Assembly: GCA_032358255.1 (NCBI GenBank)
Contig: JAULBX010032367.1
Location: 98,548 to 162,547, forward strand
Length of the DNA stretch: 64,000 nucleotides
Origin: Heterotrichella gracilis
Lineage: Eukaryota > Sar > Xanthophyceae > Tribonematales > Xanthonemataceae
Direction of reading: 5' to 3'
Under the pieces are notes generated by a model, which had not been told where the DNA came from, ran no database searches, and saw only the letters and a list, made by a program, of their open reading frames with translations. Position numbers and translations under genes: made by a program. Each line of letters starts with the position of its first letter. Position 1 is the stretch's first letter. Positions 30,016 through 56,653 of the stretch are shown in pieces.

Positions 30016-30964
30016 GGTTTTAGGGCGCGGGCGTGGAGTCTTCCTGGGGAAGGCGTCGCGTGGTACACTGTGGGGGCAGTTGTCGAAGGATTGGAAGGAG
30101 GGGAAGGGCAATTGCTGTTACATTGATGGTGCAGCATTGGGGGTTATTGGCGGCAATCACGGTGGTGCAATAGCGCCAGGGCCAGGCAAAGCATACAGAG
30201 CGGGCTCGAGCAGGGCTCAGCATTAAGGGCCTGGCTGGAAGTAGGCAGGCAAATCAAATGCGAATCAATGCAAGGCAGAGGTCAAGCGCCTTGGGGTGCG
30301 GCATGTCAAGGTGGCATGCAGGCCACCTTAGTGTCCAGAATTGTCTACATCGTTGCATAACAGTTGTTGATTTGACAAATGACGTAATGAGGGGGAGTGG
30401 GGCCGCCCCAGGCTGTGGAGAGGGGGTGATTAATGGAAAGGGGGAAGTCAGCAACATTCCGCGGTGGCATTGCTGATGGGTGCACTGCAGAGTCTTTGCT
30501 AAGCAAGTGGCGCCCTCAGCGCCAAATGCGACAACCTGCCGGGGCACGTATGGGCACAGGTTTGAACACTGGCGCAATGCGTCATGCCATTAATGTAACC
30601 GTTACACGGAGCAATTTGAAATGCCAATGACTGTTCAATAGTGAACTGTGCTGCCCATTGCCTCCAGGCACAAACAAACAACCAAACAAAGGTCAGGATA
30701 TTGCTGATGTGCATTCAGCAACTGCAATGCAGGACCCGCCCAGCTCCCCCGCCATGTACTAGGTCAAGTGGCTTGCATATGGACACACTCACTTGCACAT
30801 GCACCACCCCCCTTGCGCCCGCCACCCACCAGGTTGAATGGGTTGCACATGGACACCGCGGCCTGCAGCGGCGTGCGGTCCTCCTCCTCCCCCACAACGA
30901 ACGAAGCAATTACCCCCGCCCCCTAGGTACCCTGCTCCAGTCGTCTCATCACCTGCTCGTGCGT
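30016..30964. other. Convergent 3' region with orphan gene fragment
   Basis: Between the CPN20 stop and the stop of the two-TM gene. Apart from the hydrolase fragment at 30706-30895 I see no coding signal. Confidence 0.45.
30706..30895 (-). pseudogene. Orphan fragment of EMB8-like hydrolase exon 3 plus donor repeat
   Basis: In the minus sense this encodes GEEEDRTPLQAAVSMCNPFNL, then donor GTGGGTGGCGGGCGCAAG. That is nearly identical to the 3' half of exon 3 of the hydrolase (35528-35590) and to its flanking intron. A second, diverged donor copy (GCCACTTGACCTAGTACATGG) follows, as in the parent locus, and both loci share a gcattcagcaac stretch further downstream in the minus sense. There is no surrounding gene for it, so it is a duplicated fragment. 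Confidence 0.8.
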
Positions 30965-33575: not shown

Positions 33576-36500
33576 TCACGCGTTCACCTTCTCCGAGCTC
33601 AGGTGCCTCTGCCCCTGGTCAGGCTCCACTGGCCCCTGGCTGGCAGTGCGCAGCCGGCCCTCGGCCTGCAGCTGCCGCAGGGCACCGTGCACGTACTCCA
33701 TCACCGCCTCATTGGTCCAGGGGGCGCCTGAGGGATGGGGAGATGAGTGGGTGGGTGGGATCGGGCGTGTGGGGAGGGGAGAGGCATAGGGCGTTGGTTG
33801 ATGAAGCCGGTGAGAGCCCTTATTGGTGAAGGTCAGGGTGCTCTGTGCTAATGGTGGGTTGCCCGGCCAAGTCCATGTTGGCCATCAGTAGTGTGGCACC
33901 ATGCTTGCTCAGGTTGTAAAGGGGTGAGAAAGCATTGTCGGGTATCGCATTGAAACCACACCTACAGTAAGCGCTGCCAGGCCGACTACGTTGCGCACTG
34001 CAGCTACTGCAACAGGCAACTCTTTAAACCCTCATGTGGTTGCGTACCGAATGGTGCGTTGGGTCCCGACACCCATCCCAGGTGGCCGCCATAGGGTGTG
34101 GTGACCAGTATACAGTTAGGGTTTGCCTTCAGCTCCTCGTAGGGTATGGCTTCCTTGGGCGCAATGGGGTCGTCCTCAGCCTGCCAAAAAACACAAATGA
34201 ATAATTACAGAAAAGGGACGAAAACAGAGAGAAACAAATATGCGTGAACATCTCCTGCGTATGAGCTCCGCGAGTCAGAGAGGGTGCACATGCGTCAAGC
34301 GTGGCGTGTGGCCAGAATGAGTGTGCATGGCGTGCACCAGCAAGGAGATATCACTGCGCATTTTCTAAGGTAACATGCGCAGGGGCATGACTGTGACAAA
34401 CTATGCAGGGGTTGGCAGGTGCTGAGTACGCCATAGCGAACGACGAAAGAAAATAGTAAACGCAGATTTTGACTTCACGTTGTTGCCATGCCAGCAATCT
34501 ATTTGCAGCTTGTGCATGTGGTGCTGCTGGTGATGGTTAACCCATGCACGCCACCTCTGTCAACCAGATGGAGTCCCAAGCACCCACCTGAATGCACAGC
34601 AGCGGTATCCTGACCTTTGGCACAGACAGGTGGCTGCCTGACCCGGCATAGTAGGCATCCACGCTGGGCCACCCTGCACACAAGGCACAAACACCACAAT
34701 TTAGAAAAATGGATTTATTGTATATGTGTTTTATATAAGAATGAATACATTGATTTTACATAGGCTGGGCCACTCGGTACACCGGCGCAAACCCTGGTGC
34801 AGCATCACATCATGTACATCGCCAATGCATCCAGACCGCACCACCTGTGATTCAGCACAAGCAACAAAGGGATCTCAACAGCAGTCCTCATCTCTGCTGC
34901 AACCCGCACCGAATGACACGCGTGTGATCGCGTCATCGAAATCGCGGATGGTCCTGGACGTCATGGCCACATCCGGCCGGTATTCCCCCCCGATGCCCTC
35001 AAACAGGTGCGCGTGGGCGCGGAAGATGCGGCGCAGGCCATAGCCCAGGTTCCAGTTGTAGATCTGGTTGAAGCCCTTCTGGAAGTTCTGGTCCGAGATG
35101 GTCTGTGCACACCGGAAACTGATTTTAAATCTTCTACTTCATTATTACAAGATTTACAAGATTTATTTGACAGTCACATTCAGGGAGCCAACCCAGACTC
35201 GCAAGACTGTTGGGGGCGCTTAAAGAAGTCACCCCGCAGTATTCTATTTTATAGTATTGGATTTTTTACCAGTTTTTTACTATCGACTCCGCAGGTGAGT
35301 GGGCCTACTATAATTGGAGCATGCATTCAGCAACAGAATTGCAGTACCATCCCCATTGGACTTGCAACATGTGGTCAACGGCACGCCACCTCCTGCTCGC
35401 CACCCCCACTTCACCCGCCATCCACCAGCTCAAATAGGTTGCACAAGGACCACACCCCATGCGCCCTCCACCCACCGAATTCTCAATAAATTGCACAAGC
35501 ACCACCCCCCTTGCGCCCGCCACCCACCAGGTTGAATGGGTTGCACATGGACACAGCTGCCTGCAGTGGCGTGCAGTCCTCCTCCTCCCCCAGGTAGCGC
35601 ACCAGGATGTTGGCTCCCAGGGACCAGCCAGCGGCAAGCAGCGGCGCATCCGGGAACTTCTTCTGGACATGCGCCACCACCGCCCTGCACATGGGTGGTT
35701 AGGGTTTAGGGTTTTTGCCTGGACGTGCGACACCACCGCCCTGCGCATGGGTGAGTAGGGTTTAGGGTTTTTCGCCTGGATGTGCGCCACCACCGCCCTG
35801 CGCATGGGTGTCTAAGGTTTAGGGTTTTGCGTGGGCGTGCGCCACCACCGCTCTGCGCATGGGTGTTTAGGGGTTAGGGTTTTGCCTGGACGTGCGCCGC
35901 CACCGCCCTGCGCATGGGTGTCTAGGGGTTGGGGTTTTGCATGGGCATGGGTGCAGGACGTGCGTAGCCACTGCCCTGTGCATGGGTGTTTAGCGTGTAG
36001 GGTTTTGCCTGGGTATGGGTGCAGGCCAGTCGGCAGAACAACCATGAGGATCTTGCTTGGGCAAGCATGCGCGCATCGAGTTCCTCATGTGGCACCCCCA
36101 TCGCCCTTGTTCTAGACTGGGGCATGGGCCAGGGCTGGGTTTTGCTGGACGGTGGTGGCAGTCTAGAACCCAGGTTGCTCAACCCGCGCAAGGGCGCACA
36201 TGGCTGAGCACCTAAGGGTGCTGGCAGACCCTAAGGGTGCTGGCTGACCCTAAGGGTGCTGGCTGACCTGAGGTCTCCTGTGAACGACGCGGAGTATAAC
36301 TGCGGGGATGTGACGGGGCCGTCGCTGGTCCCCCTGCTGTTGAACACCACCGGCCGGATGCCGTCCTGCCGCGCGCGCTGCACCATGTGCTGCACGTAGG
36401 TGTCGTGGCTGCCCCCCGTCAGTCCCGGGAGCAGGATGAGCACGGTGGCGGTGCTGGGGAGGGCCTGGGGAACGAAAAGGAAAATTTGTCAGTAGTGTAA

Positions 36501-37340
36501 ATAGGTATGAAAGGTTTCCCTGGCCTTGCAGCAGGATGCGCACTGTGCTGGGGAGGGCCTGGGGAATCCACCAGTAGTCAGCAAGGAGTGCACCTGTTGC
36601 CCAACTGGCAGTGCCGCAGCAACGCATGGAATGGGATGGTGCGGTGCTTGGCAATGGGTTTGTGCCATCAAAAAACAAGAGGAGAGAAAAAGAAGAAGAA
36701 AAACGTGACCGGCAATGCATGTGTGGCCAGGAGGTGATCTGAGCCCCACTGCTTCTGCGCACAAAGATACACTTCTGATTCGTGACCATAGAAAAGATGA
36801 ATATAGTCCCCAGTGTTTCCTGGGGATTGTGCTGGTGCCCACCTCGTCATCGCCTTCAAGGTAGTCAATGGCCACCGTGCCCTTGTCTGGCATGGACAGC
36901 AGCTCCCGTTCGTACACCACACCGGGAGCCGTCCTCGTCCTTGCGGCGAAGATGGTCTCTATGTGGGGATTCGTGAGGATGAAGCTGTAGGGGACATAGG
37001 GCTCGGAGAACAGCGGGCAGCCCTCTAGGATCGTGCTGTTGCGCTCTGTGGCCTTGAAGAACACCTTTGGGTTGCTTGCCTTGGCGTTCCACAGCATCTT
37101 GGTTCCAATCGCAGCCGAGGCCAGGACCACTGCCGCTGCAACGTACGGGTGGCCCAGGCTCGCTGAAACTCGCACGCCTTTCCCACTGCTGCTGCTGAAA
37201 TGCCTAGGTCTGCTCACTAGCGTTCGCACCCCATATACAACTGCACGGTGCTGCAGTGCCACTCTCCCACTGTGACTTGCGATCTGGCTGCAACGGTTGG
37301 ATCCAGACAACCCAACTGACTGCATGCAGGCCAGCTTCAT
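33576..37340 (-). CDS. EMB8/ABHD-type alpha/beta hydrolase
   Basis: The 471-residue model has exons 37340-36843, 36464-36268, 35684-35528, 35102-34910, 34673-34588, 34180-34048 and 33727-33576; all phases close. It matches the YheT/EMB8/ABHD1-3 family: an N-terminal hydrophobic segment (VAAAVVLASAAIG) after a basic presequence, NPHIETIFAARTR, the oxyanion region LILLPGLTGGSHDTYV, RPVVFNSRGTSDGPV, the nucleophile elbow AAGWSLGANIL, GFNQIYNWNLGYGL, FDDAITRVSFGWPSVDAYY, an acid site in AEDDPIAP and the catalytic His in PYGGHLGWV. Members are membrane-associated esterases or lipases; the substrate is unknown. Three splice boundaries of this gene are embedded in tandem repeats and its start codon lies in a dispersed repeat. 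Confidence 0.92.
35386..35530 (-). repeat. Tandem copies of the exon-3 donor boundary
   Basis: Three diverged units of about 55-60 bases. In the gene sense each reads (C)TTGTGCAA.. or ATGTGCAACC.. followed by a donor: CTG|GTGGGTGGCGGG (the real one), TCG|GTGGGTGGAGGG and CTG|GTGGATGGCGGG. The 3' end of exon 3 with its splice donor has been duplicated downstream into the intron. Confidence 0.85.
35675..36025 (-). repeat. Tandem copies of the exon-3 acceptor boundary with telomere-like core
   Basis: Six units of about 56-68 bases. Each, in the gene sense, carries CCCTAAAC-like sequence, ACCCATGCGCAG and then GGCGGTGGTGGCGCACGTCC, the first bases of exon 3. The innermost unit is the functional boundary at 35684; the outer five lie in the intron and diverge progressively. 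Confidence 0.9.
36206..36268 (-). repeat. Minisatellite spanning the exon-2 splice donor
   Basis: Three units of about 19 bases (cctaagggtgctggctgac). In the gene sense each unit begins GTCAGCC or GTCTGCC, so the donor of exon 2 (GTCAGC) is reiterated twice downstream. Confidence 0.85.
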
Positions 37341-45713: not shown

Positions 45714-48700
45714 ATGGGGCTGTTTGGCTTCAACTCTGGTGCTAAGGGAACAGCAGACGCTGAGAGGGTGCCTCAGGATGAGAACAACGTGTGCACCACG
45801 CCAGGCCCCAAGTCGGTTGCCAAGAGCCCCAGGAAGCTGCCGTTTGCTCAGCTTGACGCCAACCTCATGACCCCAGAGGTACTGAATAAGCTCAGGATAG
45901 CGTTTACAACTGCTCAACCTTGGCGGGGTGTGTTACTATTCTTGAGTTTGGCGCCACATCTTGTTTAATAGGCTTGCTGTTGCTCCCAATCTTGCATCCA
46001 GCACACCAGCTGTACAAGCAGGCCCCTTGCCATGCTATTGGGTCACATCCCTGTATGTCCTGCAGCCCAAGCGCCTTCACTTTCAAGGAGGACCAGCCAG
46101 GTTGAGCGTGGCTGTTCCAGCACACACTCCCTCCTCCCACCGCCTCCCAGACGAGGAGTGCAATGTAGACACAGAGGCAACCACAGAGGAGCTATCCACA
46201 GTACCTCTGGGTCAAGACGATGCTGTGAAGGTAACACTGTTGCCCATAGCAATAATACCTCTCATAGTGATGTCCAGGTTTGGTGCAAACCATAAGCACT
46301 GTCCTGATCATATCTAAACCCTGCGCACACAGGTGGTGGTGCGCATACGCCCTTTCAACGAGCGGGAACAGCAAAGTCAGCCAGGTATGCCCCTTCGCTC
46401 TCCTGCTCCCACCAGTTATGTGGCTACCTATTGATCGTGGATGGCCAACCGTGCATGTCTTGCAGGGCTCCGGAACTGCCTAGCGCAGGTTGGTGGCAAC
46501 ACTGTTCGCGTGGAGGCGTTCCCAGACAAGCAATACTTCACTTTTGACACTGTCGCTGGGCAAAACTCATCACAGGATTCCATCTTCAGAGGTGTGTGGT
46601 TTGCTTGCTGGGTGGGTGTGCTGCTGCAACTCTGGCTAGGCGTGGCTTACCCATACATGTTCCGCTGCAGCTGCCGGGAAGTCTGTGGTGGAGAACTGCC
46701 TTGCTGGATACAACTCCTGCATCTTTGCCTACGGCCAGACAGGAAGTGGCAAAACTTTTACCATGATGGGTCCCGGCACTGACGGACCTGGGGGGCATCA
46801 TGAGCAGGTGGGGAAGAATGCTTTCAAGCTTTGGCTCCTGTTGCTGACTTTACGCAGAAAACCCATCTGACTAGCGTCCTGTGGTGCAGCGTGGACTGAT
46901 TCCCAGGGTCTTCGAGCACCTCTTCAACAGTATTGCAGAGCAGCAGAGCAAGGTACTTGGCAGTACCTTGTACAGTACCTTTGTGCATACATGTTTGACG
47001 CAGATGATGTGCATTCGTGTGCAACGCATTGGCATTGCAGCGGTGTCACTCGCAATTCTTTGGTCTGCAGGCCAAGGGCAGCATCAAGTATGTATGCAAG
47101 TGCAGCTGCTTGGAGATCTACAATGAGCACGTCACAGACTTGCTCAACCCGTCCTCCAACTCCATGCAAATCAGGGAGGACATCAAGCAGGGCATCTATG
47201 TGGAGGGGTTGACCTTTGAGCAGGTGTTCTCAGGTACAGACCCCAAGCAGCCCTGCCTTTCTGCACAATTTCAGGGATTAGGGTTTCCAGGGTCTCGCTG
47301 GCTGACATCATGGGTGTCCTGCAGTCGATGATGCCCAGCGTCTCATGCAGAAGGGTGTTGCCAACCGCCGGGTTGGTGAGACCAACATGAACCGGGAGTC
47401 CAGCAGGTCTCACTCCGTGTTCACCATTGTGCTGGAGAGCAAATCCACTGATGAGAATGGGCTGACCAACATCCTGCGCTCACGGCTCAATCTGGTGGAC
47501 CTGGCAGGTGGGAAATACGGTTTAAATTTTTTTTTTCTTGGCGAAAGGAGCGAAACCTCAACATATTGTCACATCATAACGCATATTGTCACATTCCATG
47601 GCCATGGGAATTTATAAGTTATTATAACCATGCCATTATTCAAGGTTGGGTGCATGCCTAGGTGATTCCGGCTTGACAGTGCCTGTTTCGATCAGTCGTG
47701 CCATGCGCTGCAGGGAGTGAGCGCGCCAAGAGCTCTGGGGCTCAGGGCGAGCGGCTGAAGGAGGCGTCTGCCATCAACAAGTCCCTGACCACCCTTGGCC
47801 TGGTGATCAAAACCCTGGTGGAGGCGCAGCAGGGCCGGCCAAGGCACATCCCCTACCGCGATTCCAGGCTCACTTTCTTGCTGCAGGTGAGGAGCTCCTT
47901 TCTGGCATTATATCCATGCGTGTGCTACTTCCTGGGATGTGATTGTCATCCCATCATTCTGCATTTACCCTGGTGTTTCTCTCCTGTGCTAGAATACGCT
48001 GACGCGTGGATATTCCGTACAGGACTCGCTGGGTGGCAATGCCAAGACCATCATGGTGGCCAACGTCAGCCCTGCCTCTATGAACCTGGCAGAAACACTG
48101 AGCACCCTGCGCTTTGCACAGAGGGCCAAGTGCATCAAGAACAAGGTGCGCAGTGCGGCTGGCTGACGCACATGGTACCATGCTGACCATGAGGGTAGAG
48201 CATGCTCATTGTGCTGCTCGTGCTGTGCTGCAGGCTGTGGTGAACGAGGACACTGCGGGTGACGCTGCCTTGCTGCGCATTGAGATTCAGCGTCTGAAGG
48301 AGGAGCTGATGGCCTTCAAGGGGCAGGTACGCAGCCTGAAACCTTGCTGCCATGGGTTGCAAACTGTACAGTGAGTGTGTGGGAGATTGACTGCGTGTGA
48401 TTCCCCTGCAGCAGCAGATGGAGGATGGGCCAGCTGCGTCCATGCACATGCCAGCCGCTGCCAAGGAGTGGATGGAGCACACCAGCCAGCATGGCGGCCG
48501 CAACACGCCCATGGTAAGGTGTCAGTCCTTTAGAAACGCTGCTTTTGATGTGCTCGGTGCGTGCACCTCAACCCCTCGCTAATGCAAGGGAGATGTGCGG
48601 TGTGCATGCTCAACTCTTGCAGCTATGCTGCAGGAGTGTGAGATGAGTCCATGCACCTCAACCTGCATACCTCTGTGCTTGCAGGGGCTATATGCTCTGT

Positions 48701-51700
48701 CCGACGTGGCTCAGCATGCATGTATTCCCATGTGTGCAGGGTACCCGCAAGAACCTCATGGCCGCCCTCAAGCGCGAGCAGGTGTACAACAAGCAGCTGC
48801 AGGAGCGGGGACGCCAGCTGGCGGCGCTGCAGGACCTGCTGGTGGACCGCGACAAGGACATCCAGCGCACACGCATGATTGTCAAGTTCAGGGAGCAGAA
48901 CATCGCCAGGCTAGAGGTACACCCACCGCGCACTTGCACAGCTGTGGCGAGTGGGTGAATAGCTATAGCTATAAGACTGGAGTGGCTTGTCCCTTGTGTA
49001 GGGTTTGGAGTTCTATATATTATTAAACCCTCTTGTGCATTTGGCATGTGCGCCGGGGGCAGAGTCGAATGTTGATGTGCTGTGTGCACTTCTACAGGCA
49101 CGCCTCAAGAATGGCAACACCACAGCCAGCAGGGATGCCGAGGTGGAGGACCTCAAGGGGGAGATCGCAACGCTGCAAGACAAGCTGGAGAACCATCCAG
49201 AGGTCAAGCGCTTTGCAGGTACTATGAGCGCCACACCCTGAGTGGGAACGATCCACCAATCCATGTTTCAGTCAGTCACATGCATCATGTACAACAGCCA
49301 GATTGGCAGTCAGCCTTGAACATGCAGCGCCAAGCATTCCTCGCACAGATTTACTGCAACCAATGCGGCCATCCAATGGTGTCTGCTTGCATTACCCATT
49401 ACCAGGTGCCATTCACCCTCTGACCCTTTCCCCGTGGCTGCAGTGGACAACATGCACCTGAAGCAGGAGCTTGAGCACCTGCAGTCCATGACCGACCAGG
49501 ACCACACGCAGCAGATGGAGGAGGAGATAGCCAGCCTGCGGGTGCAGGTCAGCGACCTGGTGGATGAGCTGCAGCATGCGCAGGTACGCACCCACACACC
49601 CGCTGTCCTTGCCCCACAATTATCAGGTGGTATGGTTACTCAATTAAGCACATGCAGTTTGCCAGGCGGTCTTGCACAGCTACCGCCACCCAACTCTGTC
49701 TTGTTGGGGAGTGACAGAATGCAGTTCTAGGATTTATGAGGAACATACCATCCCACCAAGTCCATGGCAGGGTGTAGCGCCTACCTTTAAGGACCTGTGT
49801 CAGGGTGCACTGAGCCATTTGCTTTGGTGTGCAGCAAGGGCAGAAGGACCTGGCTGCCACTGTGGAGGAGGCGGTGATGCAGAGCACCAAGAAGCTGGAC
49901 AGCGTGTTCATGGACGCAACGCGGGCCAGGCAGTATCAGTCAGAGATGGAGGAGAGGGTACGTGCATGGACTGCAGCATGCATGCATTTATGAAGGGTCC
50001 GTGGCAATTTTACGGCGTCCACGCAAGTAAATGCACAACCATCTATCACCACATGCATAAATTGAAGCAGTATACGCGTGGGTTCATATGCAAGGCATGC
50101 ATAAGGCGCTGGAATCTTGTGCTGATGCATGTGTGGCCTTGTTTTATGCAGACCATCCAGATGCGGCAGCTTGAGGCCCTCCTGCAGGAGGAGTCCTCCC
50201 GTGCCCTGGCCGCCAGCGCGCGCAGCAGCCAGCTGGAGTCACAGGTGTCGGACCTGCAGTCAAAGCTGGTGGAGCTGCAGAGGTAGGAACACGCACCAAG
50301 CATGGTTGTGCAAAATTGGGTCATGCTCATGTAACAGGTGTTGCAACAATGTAGTGAGTAGACAAACAACTGCACATGTGTATGATAACTTCCCTTGTAG
50401 TTTTGTAGAGTAATAAATTCAACCTAGAAATTTTGTACGTACAATGTTAATATGTACGTACAAAATTAAAAACACATATGTCACAGAGTAATATATTTGG
50501 TTATTTTGCTTACGACGTGAACATGTACGCAAAGCAGCAGCTGGCTGCCGGTTGAACACCATGTTGTTGTGGTGGCGTGCAGTGACCAGCAGAGCGTGAA
50601 GCTGCAGCTGACTCCCATGCGCCAGAAGGCTGAGCGTATTATGGACATGGAGGCCGCCATGGAGGACGCGGAGCAGCGCGCGCAGGCCGTGCAGAGCCAG
50701 CTGGACGCACTCAAGGGGGAGCACACACAGGTGGGGTGTGCGGGGAGAAAGGGAATTTGCTCCGTCACAGTGTCCTGGCTGGGCGTTTGATCCCCGCCAT
50801 GCTGGCTTTGATGAGGCATTGGGGGTATGTGCATCCATGTCACCTATGGCTGGGGCAAGGACCATTTCTAAATCAGAGCTGTGAAACATGATAGTCGCCG
50901 TTTCCGCTGGCATGTAGAATGACCATGGTGTCACGTGGTGTGTGCAGGAAACTGACGAGATGGATCAGTTCCGTGGCACCATCTCCCAGCTTGAGGCCCA
51001 GGTGCAGGTGCTCCAGCGCGAGCTGCAGCGCGAGCAGTCCAAGGTTGATGAGGAGCAGGCCAAGCTGGACCCAGAGCTGGAGGAGCTGCGCAGGGAGGTG
51101 GAGGAGGCGCTAGAGGCAGCGGAGAGGCACAGGTGGGGTGGGGCAGGGTGGAGGGCAGCACTGGGGTTGCGCATCGCTGATTATTTTAAATGTCATGTAT
51201 GTAGATATCTGATGTGACTATGTGAAAACCCAGTAACACGAAGCATTTAATCAAAGAGATACGCAAGGGTTTTCTGCCATTAATTACATGTGAGTCTGAT
51301 ATTTGAATGTTCTGGAGGGAAAGACTACCTGCACGATGGGGGCTGCACCAGGCTTGGGTATCAATCCACTGCTGGGCCAGCTAAATGGAGCCAGAGCACA
51401 AACCCAATCTCTATCCATCTGTGCAGGTCCCAGAAAGACTCCCTGGAGGTGGAGATCTCCGCGATGCACGAGAAGCTGTTTGCTGCCGAGAACGCGCTTG
51501 AGGAGCGCGAGAACGACTACCTTGCGTCCCGCACCCAGGCCGCTGAGCACCTGGCCATCGCCAGCAAGCAGAAGGAGGACCTGGTGGCCAGGCTGGCGGA
51601 GCAGCAGCGGCGGGCAGACAGCCTGTGTGCACAGGTGGCGCAGCTGCAGCAGGAGGTGGAGGCAAATGTGGCGCTCAAGGTGAGGGATGCAGGGGCCTGT

Positions 51701-54700
51701 CTTGTGCATGAACACTTGGCACTGTCCAAGCCTGGTAATGTTGTTGTCATATGCATTTTGGCAGGCTGGTTAGTAGTCAGCCTTGCACAAGCGGTGCCAT
51801 TTGGGCTCAATTCTGACGCAGTTTTCTTAACATTTTGATTTTAGGTTTCTATTTTTTCATTACTTTCCATGCTAGTGTTTCAATAAGTATTAAAAAACAT
51901 TCCTGTCTGAATTAAAATGTAAATGTATGTTAATTATGTTGTGTGCAACCTGCAGGCTGACTTGGAGGCAAACCAGGCTCAGCTGGCTGACGCCGAAGCC
52001 CGCCTCGAGTCTGCAAATGAGCGCCTCACCAAGCTGCAGGCCATGGTCCAGGAGCACAGCACGCTTGCGGAGCAGCTCCAGCAGCACATCAATGCCCAGG
52101 AGGAGCAGCACATGGCCCACAAGGCGCAGGCAGAGGCCCAACTGGCCGACGCAGCTGCACTGTACGAGCAGCGGATTGCCAAGCTGCAGGCCACTGCCTC
52201 CGCCATGCAGACAGGCCACGGGCAGCAGCTGGCGGAGCTCCAGCAGGAGCATGCATCAGCGCACATTGCCTTCATGCAGCAGCTGCAGGCGGCTCGTGAC
52301 CAGGTGGCCAGCCAGGCAGAGGAGTATGAGGTCGCCACCGCGGCTGCAAGCGCCCAGCATGTTGGTGCTGTTGCAGAGCTGCAGGGCCAGCTGGCAGGCC
52401 TCCAGCAGCAGCTGGTCGGTGCTCGGGAGCAAGGTGCTGCACTCACCGAGGAGCACCAACGCACCATCCATGGCCTGGAAGCTCAGCTCGAGGAGGCAGC
52501 AACCAGCCTGCAAGCCACATTTGCCCAGCATGACCAGGCTGTGGCGGAGATGCAGGCGATGCATGCAGCCGCGCTGGCCAGCCTGGAGCAGCGGCTGGAG
52601 GGGGCGCAGCAGGAGGTGCGGGACGCCGTGGCGGCACATGAGGCGGAGGTTGCCCGCATGGCTGCTGAGTACGCTGCAGCGGTGGCTGCCCTGCGGGATG
52701 AGGTGGCCAGTCAGCACACAGCCATGGATCAGCTGGTGGCCCAGCATGCCGCCGATGTGGCGTCCAGGCAGGAGGCGCACGGCGATGCATTTGCCACGCT
52801 ACAGGAGGCCATGGACGGCGCATCAGCAGCGCATGCTGAGCAGCTGGCATCCCTCCAGCAGGAGCATGCGTGCACGCTTGCTGGCCTGCAGGAGCAGCAT
52901 GCTGAGGCCCTGGCGGCTAAGGAGGAAGAGCAAGAAGAGGCCCTGGCAGCTAAGGAGGAAGAGCTTGCTGAGGTGTGCGCCTGTCACGCTACTGCGGTGA
53001 AGCAGCTGCATCAGAAGGTGGAGTACGCTGAGAAGATGCTGCAGGAGGAGCAGGATGAGATGGAGGCGGAGATGGAGCGCACCGGGCTGGAGCAGCAGCA
53101 GCAGGTGGGCAGTGGTTATAAAATGTTACAGTATTGTTATCACAAAACTAGATTGGGAATGTCAGCCTTTTTGTTTTGCCACCTTTGTTATTTGGCCTTT
53201 TCCATACTATACTGTAAAAATCCTTGAGATGGTAGAGAAAAGTGCATTGTGCTATGACATTTTGGCTAATTTACATAAACAGTTGAGAAATCGTGTATCC
53301 ATTGCAGGTGGAGGCGCTGGAGGGCGACCTGGCCGCTGCAAAGGAGCACACCCAGGCGCTGCAGCATGCTATCGAGGAGGTGACCGCTGCGCTTGGTGCC
53401 AAGGAGGGGGAAGCTGATGAGCTGGCGCAGCAGCTGGCGGCGCACCAAGCCCAGCTCAACGAGGCGGCCACCAGCCTGGGTGCAGAGCAGGCAGCCAAAG
53501 CGCAGTTGGAGCTTGGTTTTCAAGAGGCGGAAGCCACACATGCTGATGCGGTGGCCCAGCTGGAGCAGCAGCTGGCAGAGGCTGGAGCGGTGCTGGATGC
53601 CAGCATGCGCACCATCGCTGAGCACGAGCTTGCGTTGGCTGCTGCGGGCGAGGAAGCGGTGCGCTTGGCGGCGCAGGTGGTTGAGGGTGAGGAGGCATGT
53701 GCAGCTTTGGAGGCCAGCATGGAGGCGCAGGCGGTGCAGCATGTAGCCCAGTTGGCTGGCGTCCAGGAGCAGCATGCGCAGGAGCTTGCTGCCCTCGGTG
53801 ACCAGCTGTCAGCCCTCAAGGCGCAGCATGCAGAGCAGGCAAAGGCTATGCAGGCGCGGCACGGCACTGAGTTGGTGGAGGCTCAGGAGCGGCATGCAGA
53901 GCTGGTGGCGGCTATGCAGGAGCAGCACGCCACAGAGTTGCGCAAGGCGCAGGAGGCTATGCAGGCGCGGCATGCCAGTGAGTTGGTGGATGCACAGGAG
54001 CGGCATGCAGAGCAGGTGGCTGCGGCTGAGGCGCATCTGCTGGCCACTAGGCATCAGCACGCTGAGCAGCTGGCAGCCATGCAGGAGCAGCATGCCAATG
54101 CACTGGCGGAGGCCGAGGGGCGCTTGGCTGAGGCCAGTGCACTGCATGTTGATGCACTGGCGGACGCCAAGTGGCGACTGGCGGAGGCAGGCACCCAGCA
54201 CGCTGCAGAGCTGGCGGACACTGGGGCAAAGCATGCACAGGCGGTGACTCGTCTGGAGTTGCAGCTCGTAGCTGCACAGGAGCAGCATGCCCGGGAGGCG
54301 GCTGAATTGCAATCGCAGCTAGAGGCAGCGCAGGAGCAGCATGCACAGGCGGTGGCTGGTCTCCGTTCCCAGCTGGCGGCAGCACAGGAGCAGCATGTGC
54401 AGGAGGCGGCTGAGTTGCAATCGCAGCTAGAGGCAGCGCGGGAGCAGCATGCTAAGGATGCAGCTGAGTTGCAGTCCCAGCTAGAGGCAGCACAGGAACA
54501 GCATGCACAGGAGGCGGCTGAATTGCAAGCGCAGCTAGACGCAGCGCAGGAGCAGCATGCACAGGCGGCGGCTGAATTGCAGTCACAGCTCCAGGCAGCA
54601 CAGGAGGAGCATGCACAGGAAACGGCTGAATTGCAAGCGCAGCTAGAGGCAGCGCAGGAGCAGCATGCCCTGCAAGTGGATCAGCTCGAGCAGCAGCTTG

Positions 54701-56653
54701 CGGGCGCCCTCGCAGCGCATGCCACTCAGGTCGCACAGCTTGAGGCCCAAGTGGAGGAAGTGGATGGGCAGCTGACCCTTGCCGAGGAGCAGCTGGAGCA
54801 GGCGGGGTTGCGCGCTGCGGAGGTGCAGGTGCAGCACGAGGCGGCCATGGGTGCGTGTGTGGAGCGGTTCCAGCTGTCCATGGAGCAGCTGCAAGACAAC
54901 CTGCACCAGACTGAGATGGGGCTGCGGGAGGAGCTGAGCGCTGCGCATGACGCCGCGGCGGAGGGCGCTGCAAGGTGAGCAGCACAAGTAGTATAAACTC
55001 TTCTGATTTGTCTAATCTTTTATTATGGAAACTGTCAACATTTATATAATTGGTGTTGAATTGAAATGAGATGTTGTTCAATTGACCTGCCATTCTGACA
55101 AATTGCATGAAGTGCATAGCCATGGATAGCGGTGGCATTGGATCAAGCAAAGTCATCTTGATTGAGTAAGGTGTTAGTTCTACAGTTGTCAAGATATGAG
55201 GTCGTGCAGGGCGCAAGAGTTGCAGACCGCGCTGGAGCAGGCGCAGGCCGCTGCTGGCGAGCTTGAGGCCATGCTGGCTGCCAGGGATGACCAGGAGCAG
55301 CTGCTAATGTAAGTGCATGGACTTTGGGAAAGCTGGATATTGTTTGCTGCAATGTTGACGCTATTATCTCCTGGAATGCATATCAATTCAACAAAGCACT
55401 GGGCTTATGTTGTATCATAGTGGTTAAAATATGCAGGTATCCAATTGAGAAATGTTCAACATTTGCAGGGAGGCCTCCACCCGTGCTGCTGAGCTGGAGT
55501 CCCAGCTGGGCGAGGCGCAAGCTGCCCGCCTGGACGAGGCCGGTGCTGCCCACCAGCAGGTGAAGGAGGCGCGGCAGGCGGCGCTGGACGCCAGGCGCAA
55601 GGCGGCGGCGCTGGAGAGCGCCATGCAGCGGCTGCGCAGCGAGCACGAGCAGGTGTCCAGCGCGTACCGCCAGGCGCAGAGGGAGCTGGCTGAGCTGCAT
55701 GACACACAGGAGCGGCTACAGCAGGCGGAGCACGTCATGGAGGCGGCTGAGGCAGCCAGGTGCGGAATAAATACATCAATAGAATGTCAAGGTGTATCAA
55801 TGTCATTAGGGTTTTTGGTTGTGTAGTTGGCTGAACCACTTGCAAGGTTGTCCTTGGTGGCCCTCAAAATGTGCTTTCTGGGACCTGTGTGCTCCACCAT
55901 TCAAACAGTGACCCGAGGAGCCCCAATATAGGCATTGCCAAATTCTTTCATGAACTCCTTCCCCCTTGCCCTCCAGGTCCCAGCTGTGCGCCCAGCTGGA
56001 CCAGTCGCTGGAGCTGCTGCAGGAGGCTGAGCAGAACCGCGAGGAGGGCGAGGCGGACAGGGCCAAGCTGCGCCTGCGCCTGGTGGAGACGCAGGAGCGG
56101 CTGCAGGAGGTGGAGCAGCGTAATGCAGAGCTGGCAGGTGAGTGGTGATGGAGCCACTGCATGCGGGGGTGCGGCAAGCAAGAGGGGGTGAAAGCGTTGT
56201 GAAAGGCAGTTGTGGGATGCATCACATTGGCTGCAAATGTGGATGAACGCCTAGGTTACATGGTGCATGCTATGGTAATGCATGTCACAATCCATATCAG
56301 CACGCAGGAAGTGAGTATTCGCTGCATGCATTCCATCAATACTGCCAGATTCGCAGAACCCTTGCTCAGCTTGCGCCAATCAGGATCAGGACGGTATGCA
56401 TGCTCTCCATGTCGCACGCCAATCTGCTGTTCAAAATTCAATAATTTTAATAATCATGCATGCCTCTCCATATGTTGCAGGTCACGCCAACCTGCAGCAG
56501 AAGATCCACATGCACCAAAAGATCAAGGAGGAGAACAACGTGCTCAAGGAGAACCTGCAGCGCACGCAGGACGAGTTTGTCAAGCTCAAGGCGCGGTACC
56601 ATAAGGCCGTCACGGACATGGCCAGGCTCAGGGGCAAGGCACAGGACCAGTAG
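45714..56653 (+). CDS. KIN-12 / KIF15-type kinesin
   Basis: A plus-end-type motor with a giant coiled coil, resembling plant phragmoplast-orienting and phragmoplast-associated KIN-12. The 26-exon model totals 6,363 bases (2,120 residues) with every phase closing; exon starts include 45714, 46066, 46333, 46466, 46671, 46890, 47071, 47325, 47714, 48023, 48234, 48412, 48740, 49098, 49444, 49835, 50152, 50583, 50948, 51427, 51956, 53308, 55210, 55469, 55977 and 56481. The motor shows [13 protein letters not shown]-loop [23 protein letters not shown]-like [11 protein letters not shown], switch [12 protein letters not shown], switch [27 protein letters not shown] and neck [16 protein letters not shown]-12 features beyond the motor are [10 protein letters not shown] and a C-terminal [15 protein letters not shown] helix. 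Two very large exons (1,149 and 1,667 bases) encode Ala/Gln/Glu-rich coiled coil including an 18-residue tandem repeat. Confidence 0.95.
54271..54702 (+). repeat. 54-base coding tandem repeat (18-residue helical unit)
   Basis: Eight consecutive units of consensus [18 protein letters not shown] within the kinesin rod. The unit length is exactly 54 bases and the frame is kept; units differ by a few substitutions. Confidence 0.95.

Follow-up and report, generated by a model that had tools for sequence, protein, structure and literature searches.

How introns become longer is a question usually approached through old, eroded sequence, from which changes in length are inferred. It is raised here by a 64-kb stretch of the genome of Heterotrichella gracilis (Xanthophyceae), which we call the window (C903:98548-162547, in a genome of 68.5 Mb in 903 contigs), and in which both ends of exon 3 of a predicted hydrolase gene are repeated in the flanking introns. 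In this genome intermediates are visible: some duplications are single and have clean filler, others have multiplied into arrays or are represented by eroded copies, and one paralogue has sites that are nearly empty. In about one in ten of the introns that we sampled (39 of 418) the intron's own splice junction recurs in a copy that can still be recognised, often set apart by telomeric filler. Judging from sequence comparison, we rather favor the view that the arrays are local duplication-insertion events arising from the repair of staggered breaks with the addition of filler. Such a view suggests that sloppy break repair helps to build introns in this genome, and it joins three subjects that have been studied separately: small tandem duplications, telomeric inserts, and splice-site evolution.

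A preliminary description of the window had assigned positions 35528-35684 of the minus strand to exon 3 of an EMB8-like hydrolase. A self-trained gene finder, blind to that call, returned an exon with the same coordinates, bounded by an acceptor (TGTGCAG/GG) of 10.1 bits and a donor (AACCTG/GTGGGT) of 9.1 bits; the sequence CTAAC lies about 15 nucleotides (nt) upstream of the acceptor, as judged by eye. The predicted product of this minus-strand gene matches Abhydrolase_1 at residues 169-406 (E 1.1e-11), a match that covers both the exon 2/3 and the exon 3/4 junctions. It also aligns without gaps across the exon 2/3 junction to the homologue 2fuk_A (E 0.00066), in an alignment that stops short of the exon 3/4 junction. 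Because the gene finder and the lack of a gap at the exon 2/3 junction agree with the earlier placement of exon 3, that placement is most likely right. By its Abhydrolase_1 match the gene product is an alpha/beta hydrolase, whereas "EMB8-like" remains a label of the preliminary description's own.

The duplication of both ends of exon 3 into the flanking introns is confirmed. Upstream (35663-36025, minus strand) lie five extra units with a period of 55-68 nt and a degenerate sixth at 36009. Each of the five consists of a core of 13 nt of intron and 22 nt of exon together with about 20 nt of telomere-type filler, and the core common to the units (approximately these 13 and 22 nt) reads CACCCATGYGCAG on the intron side and GGCGGTGGTGGCGCAYGTCCAG on the exon side. 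The repeat finder placed six upstream copies in register, including that of the exon itself, at spacings of 56, 57, 55, 55, and 68 nt. Tandem Repeats Finder gave a score of 411 to 35663-35944 (5.1 copies with a period of 55) and one of 199 to 35888-36025 (2.0 copies with a period of 68), whereas 200 order-1 shuffles of 35000-36500 (300 kb) yielded 17 arrays with a score of at least 40 and a top score of 55. Telomere-type stretches, such as GCAAAACCCTAAACCCTAA, lie inside the upstream units. One of them, with CCCTAAA on the sense strand, adjoins the real acceptor (35699-35714, minus strand), and further exact stretches are found at 35756-35770, 35816-35827, and 35874-35882 (minus strand). Downstream, an array at 35400-35552 (minus strand) repeats the exon end and the donor in two extra units, at offsets of 52 and 102 nt, and in it no telomere-type filler was found. 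The five acceptor units and two donor units of the preliminary description are therefore borne out by the repeat finders and shuffles, and so is its periodicity of 55-68 nt upstream of the exon; downstream the period is 50-52 nt instead. The preliminary description made no mention of the telomere-type filler.

Copies of this kind extend well beyond exon 3. Our sample comprised 264 kb (the window and 200 kb of contig C46), or 0.4% of one genome. Gene models were ab initio, from our own self-trained hidden Markov gene finder (32 genes, 450 exons, and 418 introns; donor consensus CAG/GTGAGT, acceptor consensus TGCAG/G). Purpose-written scripts served for gene finding, for the placement null, and for the flank tests. 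In a BLAST self-comparison, 41 of 836 boundaries (22 acceptors and 19 donors, in 39 of the 418 introns) had a copy in the same intron that spanned the boundary. When 24-nt probes from exon starts were compared with their own upstream introns, 19 of 403 matched with a score of at least 13, as did 9 of 402 exon-end probes with their own downstream introns; the expectation from random introns was 0.0 in both cases. Probes taken 36 nt inside the exon matched in 3 of 378 and 2 of 373 cases. Intron probes compared with the rest of the same intron gave 6 matches for the middle, 7 for the last 24 nt, and 9 for the first 24 nt, each out of 367. Carriers were spread unevenly among genes (permutation P 0.005). 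One predicted C46 gene had 17 carriers among its 85 introns, another had 7 among 23, and a merged prediction that includes the hydrolase gene had 3 among 12, as against 0 of 88 in four other genes of the window.

Could these copies be an artefact of gene prediction or assembly, with stop codons in telomere-like stretches forcing predicted exon ends to lie beside them? The models are all ab initio, only two have been checked by homology, and some array-bearing predicted introns are just 58-165 nt long. Exon 3, however, lies inside homology matches, as does an exon of a TPM-domain gene at C46 133363, and only two of the 39 carrier introns are shorter than 200 nt (153 and 101 nt). We consider an artefact hardly credible.

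The lengths of the carrier introns bear directly on growth. Introns with a junction copy had a median length of 357 nt as compared with 259 nt for the others, a difference of 98 nt (P 2.7e-6), and when the outermost duplication offset was subtracted the median of the carriers fell to 264 nt. The excess length of carrier introns is thus close to the duplication offset, which supports lengthening by duplication. All but one of the 39 exceeded their outermost offset by at least 56 nt, the exception being C46 142241 (101 nt, offset 91). A tandem pair of paralogous genes (C46:177616-190165, minus strand; L035-L037), merged by the gene finder, has introns that can be aligned. In this pair the 557-nt intron at 187744 has both a donor and an acceptor duplication, with two copies of each core, and in the alignment its 304-nt counterpart at 181083 has each core once; identity between the exons on either side is 80%. 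Used as a probe on the paralogous introns, a 79-nt core scored 41 and 18. In a second pair of introns (186819 and 180417) a telomeric insert in the intron interior faces an empty site, and the acceptor sides align poorly. The proposal in the preliminary description that introns lengthen through duplication of segments bearing splice sites thus gains support, at exon 3 and beyond it, from the 41 of 836 boundaries, the carrier lengths, and the near-single-copy paralogue. A periodicity of intron length close to 117 nt, with a power of 8.0 where the 95% level of the null was 6.8, was too weak to be used.

What lies between the copies? The 41 boundaries found by BLAST, together with three donors from the outward test described below, made 44 candidates, of which 39 were usable in the pair script. 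Lost were the exon 3 acceptor (for which core and filler lengths were read from the sequence), the C46 acceptors 128197 and 158831, and the C46 donors 57586 and 86323. In the 39 pairs the core measured 17-102 nt (median 48) and the gap had a median of 49 nt, with 28 of the 39 gaps between 20 and 66 nt. Over 56 pairs the median M/T was 0.51, indicating, for many of them, similar cores with unrelated sequence in between and not plain tandems. A telomere-type stretch lay inside the gap in 20 of the 39 pairs. The clearest case is the acceptor at C46 133363, in the TPM-domain gene, where the domain match crosses the junction; its 86-nt core is repeated across a 26-nt gap that consists almost entirely of CCTAAACCCTAAACCCTAAACC.

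A gap with a flanking duplication resembles an insertion with its target duplication, and the length of the gaps is fairly tight. The gaps might accordingly be thought to hold a mobile element, either introner-like or a miniature transposon with telomere-like ends, that inserts at exon edges and makes long target duplications. Some short dispersed sequences do exist in the sample. Seventeen pairs of matching introns were found among the 418 (7 of them within one tandem gene pair; the largest linked group has 7 introns), and 10 of the 17 link different genes through stretches of 29-85 nt. When 38 gaps were compared, however, the 8-mers common to at least three of them were telomere-like variants or simple C/G-rich words. 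The 418 introns, once their telomere-type heptamers had been masked, contained no whole-intron family, although a small family is possible, the sample being 0.4% of the genome. Introners, as portrayed in the available part of the report on them (PMC9860276), likewise remodel introns rapidly in protists and algae and do so with target duplications, but these are of 3-9 bp, as compared with the 17-102 nt seen here. A mobile element is, in our estimation, a highly improbable source. One short dispersed repeat touches the hydrolase gene itself: stretches at positions 291-366 of the intron at 35527-35103 (minus strand) match introns of two C46 genes, at 86% over 50 nt (inverted) and 94% over 35 nt.

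The telomere-type sequence is itself concentrated near exons. We found 110 arrays of the CCCTAAA/TTTAGGG type in the 264 kb, 100 of them intronic, 6 intergenic, and 4 exonic; of the intronic arrays, 60 were within 60 nt of an exon and 40 elsewhere in introns. Flanking direct repeats (p<=0.05) accompanied 33 of the 60 near-exon arrays and 17 of the 40 other intronic arrays, as opposed to none of the 6 intergenic and none of the 4 exonic arrays. By eye, most of the 17 repeat-flanked interior arrays were in introns that already held a junction copy. Per kb there were 1.25 arrays in the 60 nt next to exons, or 0.85 when only introns free of junction copies were counted, as compared with 0.23 in the interior of such introns, 0.13 in intergenic sequence, and 0.05 in exons. 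Introns (133 kb) contained 485 telomere-type 9-mers, exons (84 kb) 12, and intergenic sequence (47 kb) 14; a control with the motif reversed gave 13 in introns. Proceeding outward from an array, we found an exon-edge copy (p<=0.05) in 12 of the 33 arrays on the acceptor side and in 16 of the 34 on the donor side, some introns being counted twice. Among the repeat-flanked intronic arrays, 40 of 50 had CCCTAAA on the sense strand, with multi-copy arrays counted several times, and all 10 near-donor arrays in the 264-kb sample that lacked flanking repeats had TTTAGGG on the sense strand.

The association is not confined to the two contigs. At eight loci on at least seven other contigs, picked solely for four tandem telomere repeats (L015, and L016, which overlaps it, were left out), 17 of 32 arrays had flanking direct repeats at p<=0.01 when random genomic segments served as the control. 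These 17 include one array in a predicted intergenic stretch and one in a predicted exonic stretch. Across the genome the 16-mer CCCTAAACCCTAAACC occurred 3052 times, contig ends included, as compared with once for the reversed pattern, and a few 28-mer matches stood at the start of contigs. At locus L010 (1495-1681), an array of about 62 nt whose units each combine a telomere-type repeat with a short copy of an exon edge resembles that of the hydrolase gene.

From these results we infer the following course of events, including the initial break, the enzymes at work, and the use of the exon-proximal site. A staggered break, made by two offset nicks or as a break with long overhangs, would open the gene near an exon edge, and fill-in of both overhangs would duplicate the 17-102 nt (median 48) that lay between the nicks. 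Filler would then be put between the copies, often some 10-30 nt of telomeric repeat and plausibly by telomerase, and the ends would be joined. Where the duplicated segment carried a splice site, the new material would be read as intron, since the site beside the intact exon would still be usable; the gene would survive with an intron longer, mostly, by about 80-120 nt. Upstream of exon 3 the first event would have combined the 35-nt core with about 20 nt of telomeric filler, the resulting 55-nt unit then having been multiplied in tandem, and the downstream array would be a plain tandem duplication. A 24-nt telomere-type stretch contains a stop in all frames in both orientations. An insert of this sort in an exon would therefore break the gene unless a duplicated splice site placed it in the intron, which would explain both the near-absence of arrays from exons and the finding that the copied exon part was no longer than 55 nt in all 56 pairs.

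Both halves of this scheme have precedents in the available parts of published work. Where a break has 3' overhangs, small tandem duplications require CST-guided Pol alpha-primase, which is also the telomere fill-in complex (PMC8355091), and telomeric repeats are inserted at mammalian breaks, in some cases with a target duplication ascribed to a staggered break (PMC2246262, PMC7215372). In combination the two processes would give the arrangement core-filler-core. A stronger version, in which break repair by the telomere machinery is focused on exon edges by transcription, splicing, or chromatin and is a main engine of intron growth in this lineage, is conceivable but in our judgment rather doubtful.

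Several observations weigh against repair of staggered breaks with filler as the source of the arrays. In the 24-nt probe test, exon ends were no commoner than intron probes, and only acceptors stood out. Counted by repeat pairs, there were 36 intron-intron pairs as compared with 33 acceptor-intron and 24 donor-intron pairs. No fewer than 17 of the 39 carrier introns belong to a single predicted gene. Nineteen of the 39 gaps lack an exact telomere-type stretch, so telomerase is not a general source of the filler. An orientation rule, with TTTAGGG nearer the left copy and CCCTAAA nearer the right, was followed in 8 of 10 and 8 of 17 cases, respectively, which gives no clear direction. In the tandem gene pair, the exon-tail score in the 557-nt intron (12) was no higher than the shuffle maximum, and the 304-nt intron contains a weak exon-head-like fragment (14 as against a shuffle maximum of 13), perhaps the mark of an older event. 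In the available parts of the mammalian reports, few telomeric inserts come with duplications: 6 of 130 loci in rodents and 4 of 25 in primates (PMC2246262), and 3 of 66 in the horse (PMC7215372). Finally, the excess at junctions is not predicted by uniform breakage and needs a further cause, and the scarcity of arrays in intron interiors and intergenic DNA likewise requires either extra breaks in or near exons or selection.

Some of these observations would suit another account, in which tandem duplication or slippage occurs neutrally everywhere, copies in exons are purged, copies in introns and at junctions persist, and the telomere-like stretches are incidental microsatellites. The parity of exon-end and intron probes fits that account. 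So do those pairs that are plain tandems, with M/T near 1, such as C46 158999, C46 56666, and the array downstream of exon 3, and constraint on the exon copy may keep junction-spanning pairs visible up to about twice as long. Yet with uniform placement the share of acceptors would be 0.10-0.19, and at most 0.31 if exon constraint doubled visibility, whereas at one count per intron we observed 22 of 36 (P 2e-4 to 1e-13); for donors the count was 19 of 33 (P 2e-3 to 3e-11). Local repeats lying wholly within the intron occurred in 14 introns, 6 of which had no junction copy. The median M/T is likewise at odds with a neutral origin, as is the position of the telomere-type stretches, which sit between copies and are rare between genes (6 of the 110 arrays). 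The per-intron count rules out uniform duplication as a full account, and neutral duplication at large strikes us as unlikely.

If duplication-insertion has left splice sites in introns, how are these copies dealt with? At exon 3 the nearest decoy acceptor (35741, minus strand, given as the last intron base if used) scores 10.1 bits, equal to the real site. The others (35798, 35853, 35908, 35976, and the degenerate 36009, minus strand) score 4.5-8.4 bits, and the decoy donors at 35475 and 35425 (minus strand) score 6.7 and 5.1 bits as compared with 9.1 for the real donor. Use of any of the six decoy acceptors or two decoy donors would lead to a premature stop 6 to 90 codons past the junction. 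Because of these stops, productive alternative exons, which the preliminary description had thought the copies could generate, are unlikely at exon 3, and we reject them there (8 of 8 decoys tested). It would seem, moreover, that genes can tolerate a strong decoy acceptor lying 50-100 nt upstream of the real one, a point that bears on splice-site choice.

Premature stops are also what would be expected if the copies were kept for a function, either as decoys that tune splicing, for example through unproductive splicing and nonsense-mediated decay, or as telomere-like branch sites or intronic enhancers. In keeping with such a role, 15 of the 17 acceptor copies that span the junction in the list of the 20 best retain their decoy AG, and several decoys score like the real site; young neutral copies, however, would also keep intact AGs. 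Orientation might be read in the same way, since arrays with CCCTAAA outnumber the others by 25 to 6 upstream of acceptors, and those with TTTAGGG do so by 17 to 12 after donors. But copy number is unequal between the paralogous introns that we compared, and in introns without telomere-type heptamers CTAAA is 0.21-fold near acceptors, whereas CTAAC and CTGAC are enriched about three-fold. CCCTAAA is therefore unsupported as a simple branch site, and retention of the copies for a function seems to us very unlikely.

Our preferred reading, repair of staggered breaks with filler, can be set beside known systems as they appear in the available parts of the published reports. The nearest precedent for the splicing part is a potato gene in which, as here, the tandemly duplicated segment spans an acceptor boundary, so that its splice signals come from the parental intron (PMC4974935). 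In the potato gene a single event gave rise to a new intron, with the donor supplied by the exon copy; in our sample it is introns already present that lengthen, at donors as well as at acceptors, filler lies between most copies, and 41 boundaries are affected in 264 kb. Intron gain by non-homologous end joining in Daphnia is likewise marked by short direct repeats around the inserts, ascribed to repair of staggered breaks (PMC3443670), but yields new introns rather than longer ones with duplicated splice sites. The duplications made by CST and Pol alpha (PMC8355091), a mark of which is their dependence on CST, 53BP1, and Shieldin, are similar in size, being less than about 100 bp (cores here are 17-102 nt, median 48), and the available part of that report makes no mention of telomeric filler. 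For the filler, the nearest precedent is the interstitial telomeric inserts of mammals (PMC2246262, PMC7215372), which are short and non-terminal and are sometimes associated with target duplications or random filler. In humans they fit random placement, with 31% in introns and, in the parts of those reports available, none in exons; in our sample introns contain 100 of the 110 arrays, and of the 60 that lie no more than 60 nt from an exon, 33 are flanked by repeats. Among the literature matches listed, in which subscription journals are poorly covered, we found no concentration of telomeric repeats at splice junctions, and the combination of junction duplication with telomeric filler, at such a frequency and with such a focus on junctions, was absent from them.

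Other repeats were noted in and around the hydrolase gene. A copy of the exon 2 acceptor (8 nt of intron and 14 nt of exon, identical) lies in intron 1 at 36545-36566 (minus strand), 94 nt upstream of the real site. Its decoy exon start, at 36558, scores 5.9 bits as compared with 11.3 for the real one, and its use would cause a frameshift with a stop 183 codons past the junction. A 19-nt tandem array of 3.5 copies (36201-36268, minus strand) begins exactly at the intron 2 donor and repeats the donor start GTCAGCC. A dispersed partial copy of exon 3, which takes in the last half of the exon together with its donor and the beginning of intron 3, lies at 30802-30894 (minus strand; 96% over 93 bp), 4.7 kb from the source; below 30802 there is weaker similarity to a diverged intron start, with the second intron unit 32 nt shorter. 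On C46, the predicted gene with 17 junction-copy introns is a giant (L022-L027, C46:47283-91699, plus strand; 85 introns, 5887 residues) that may be several merged genes; its first 350 residues had no Pfam match. Finally, a tandem repeat of 54/108 nt at 54230-54668 of the window, within a predicted plus-strand gene (45714-56651), is probably a coding repeat.

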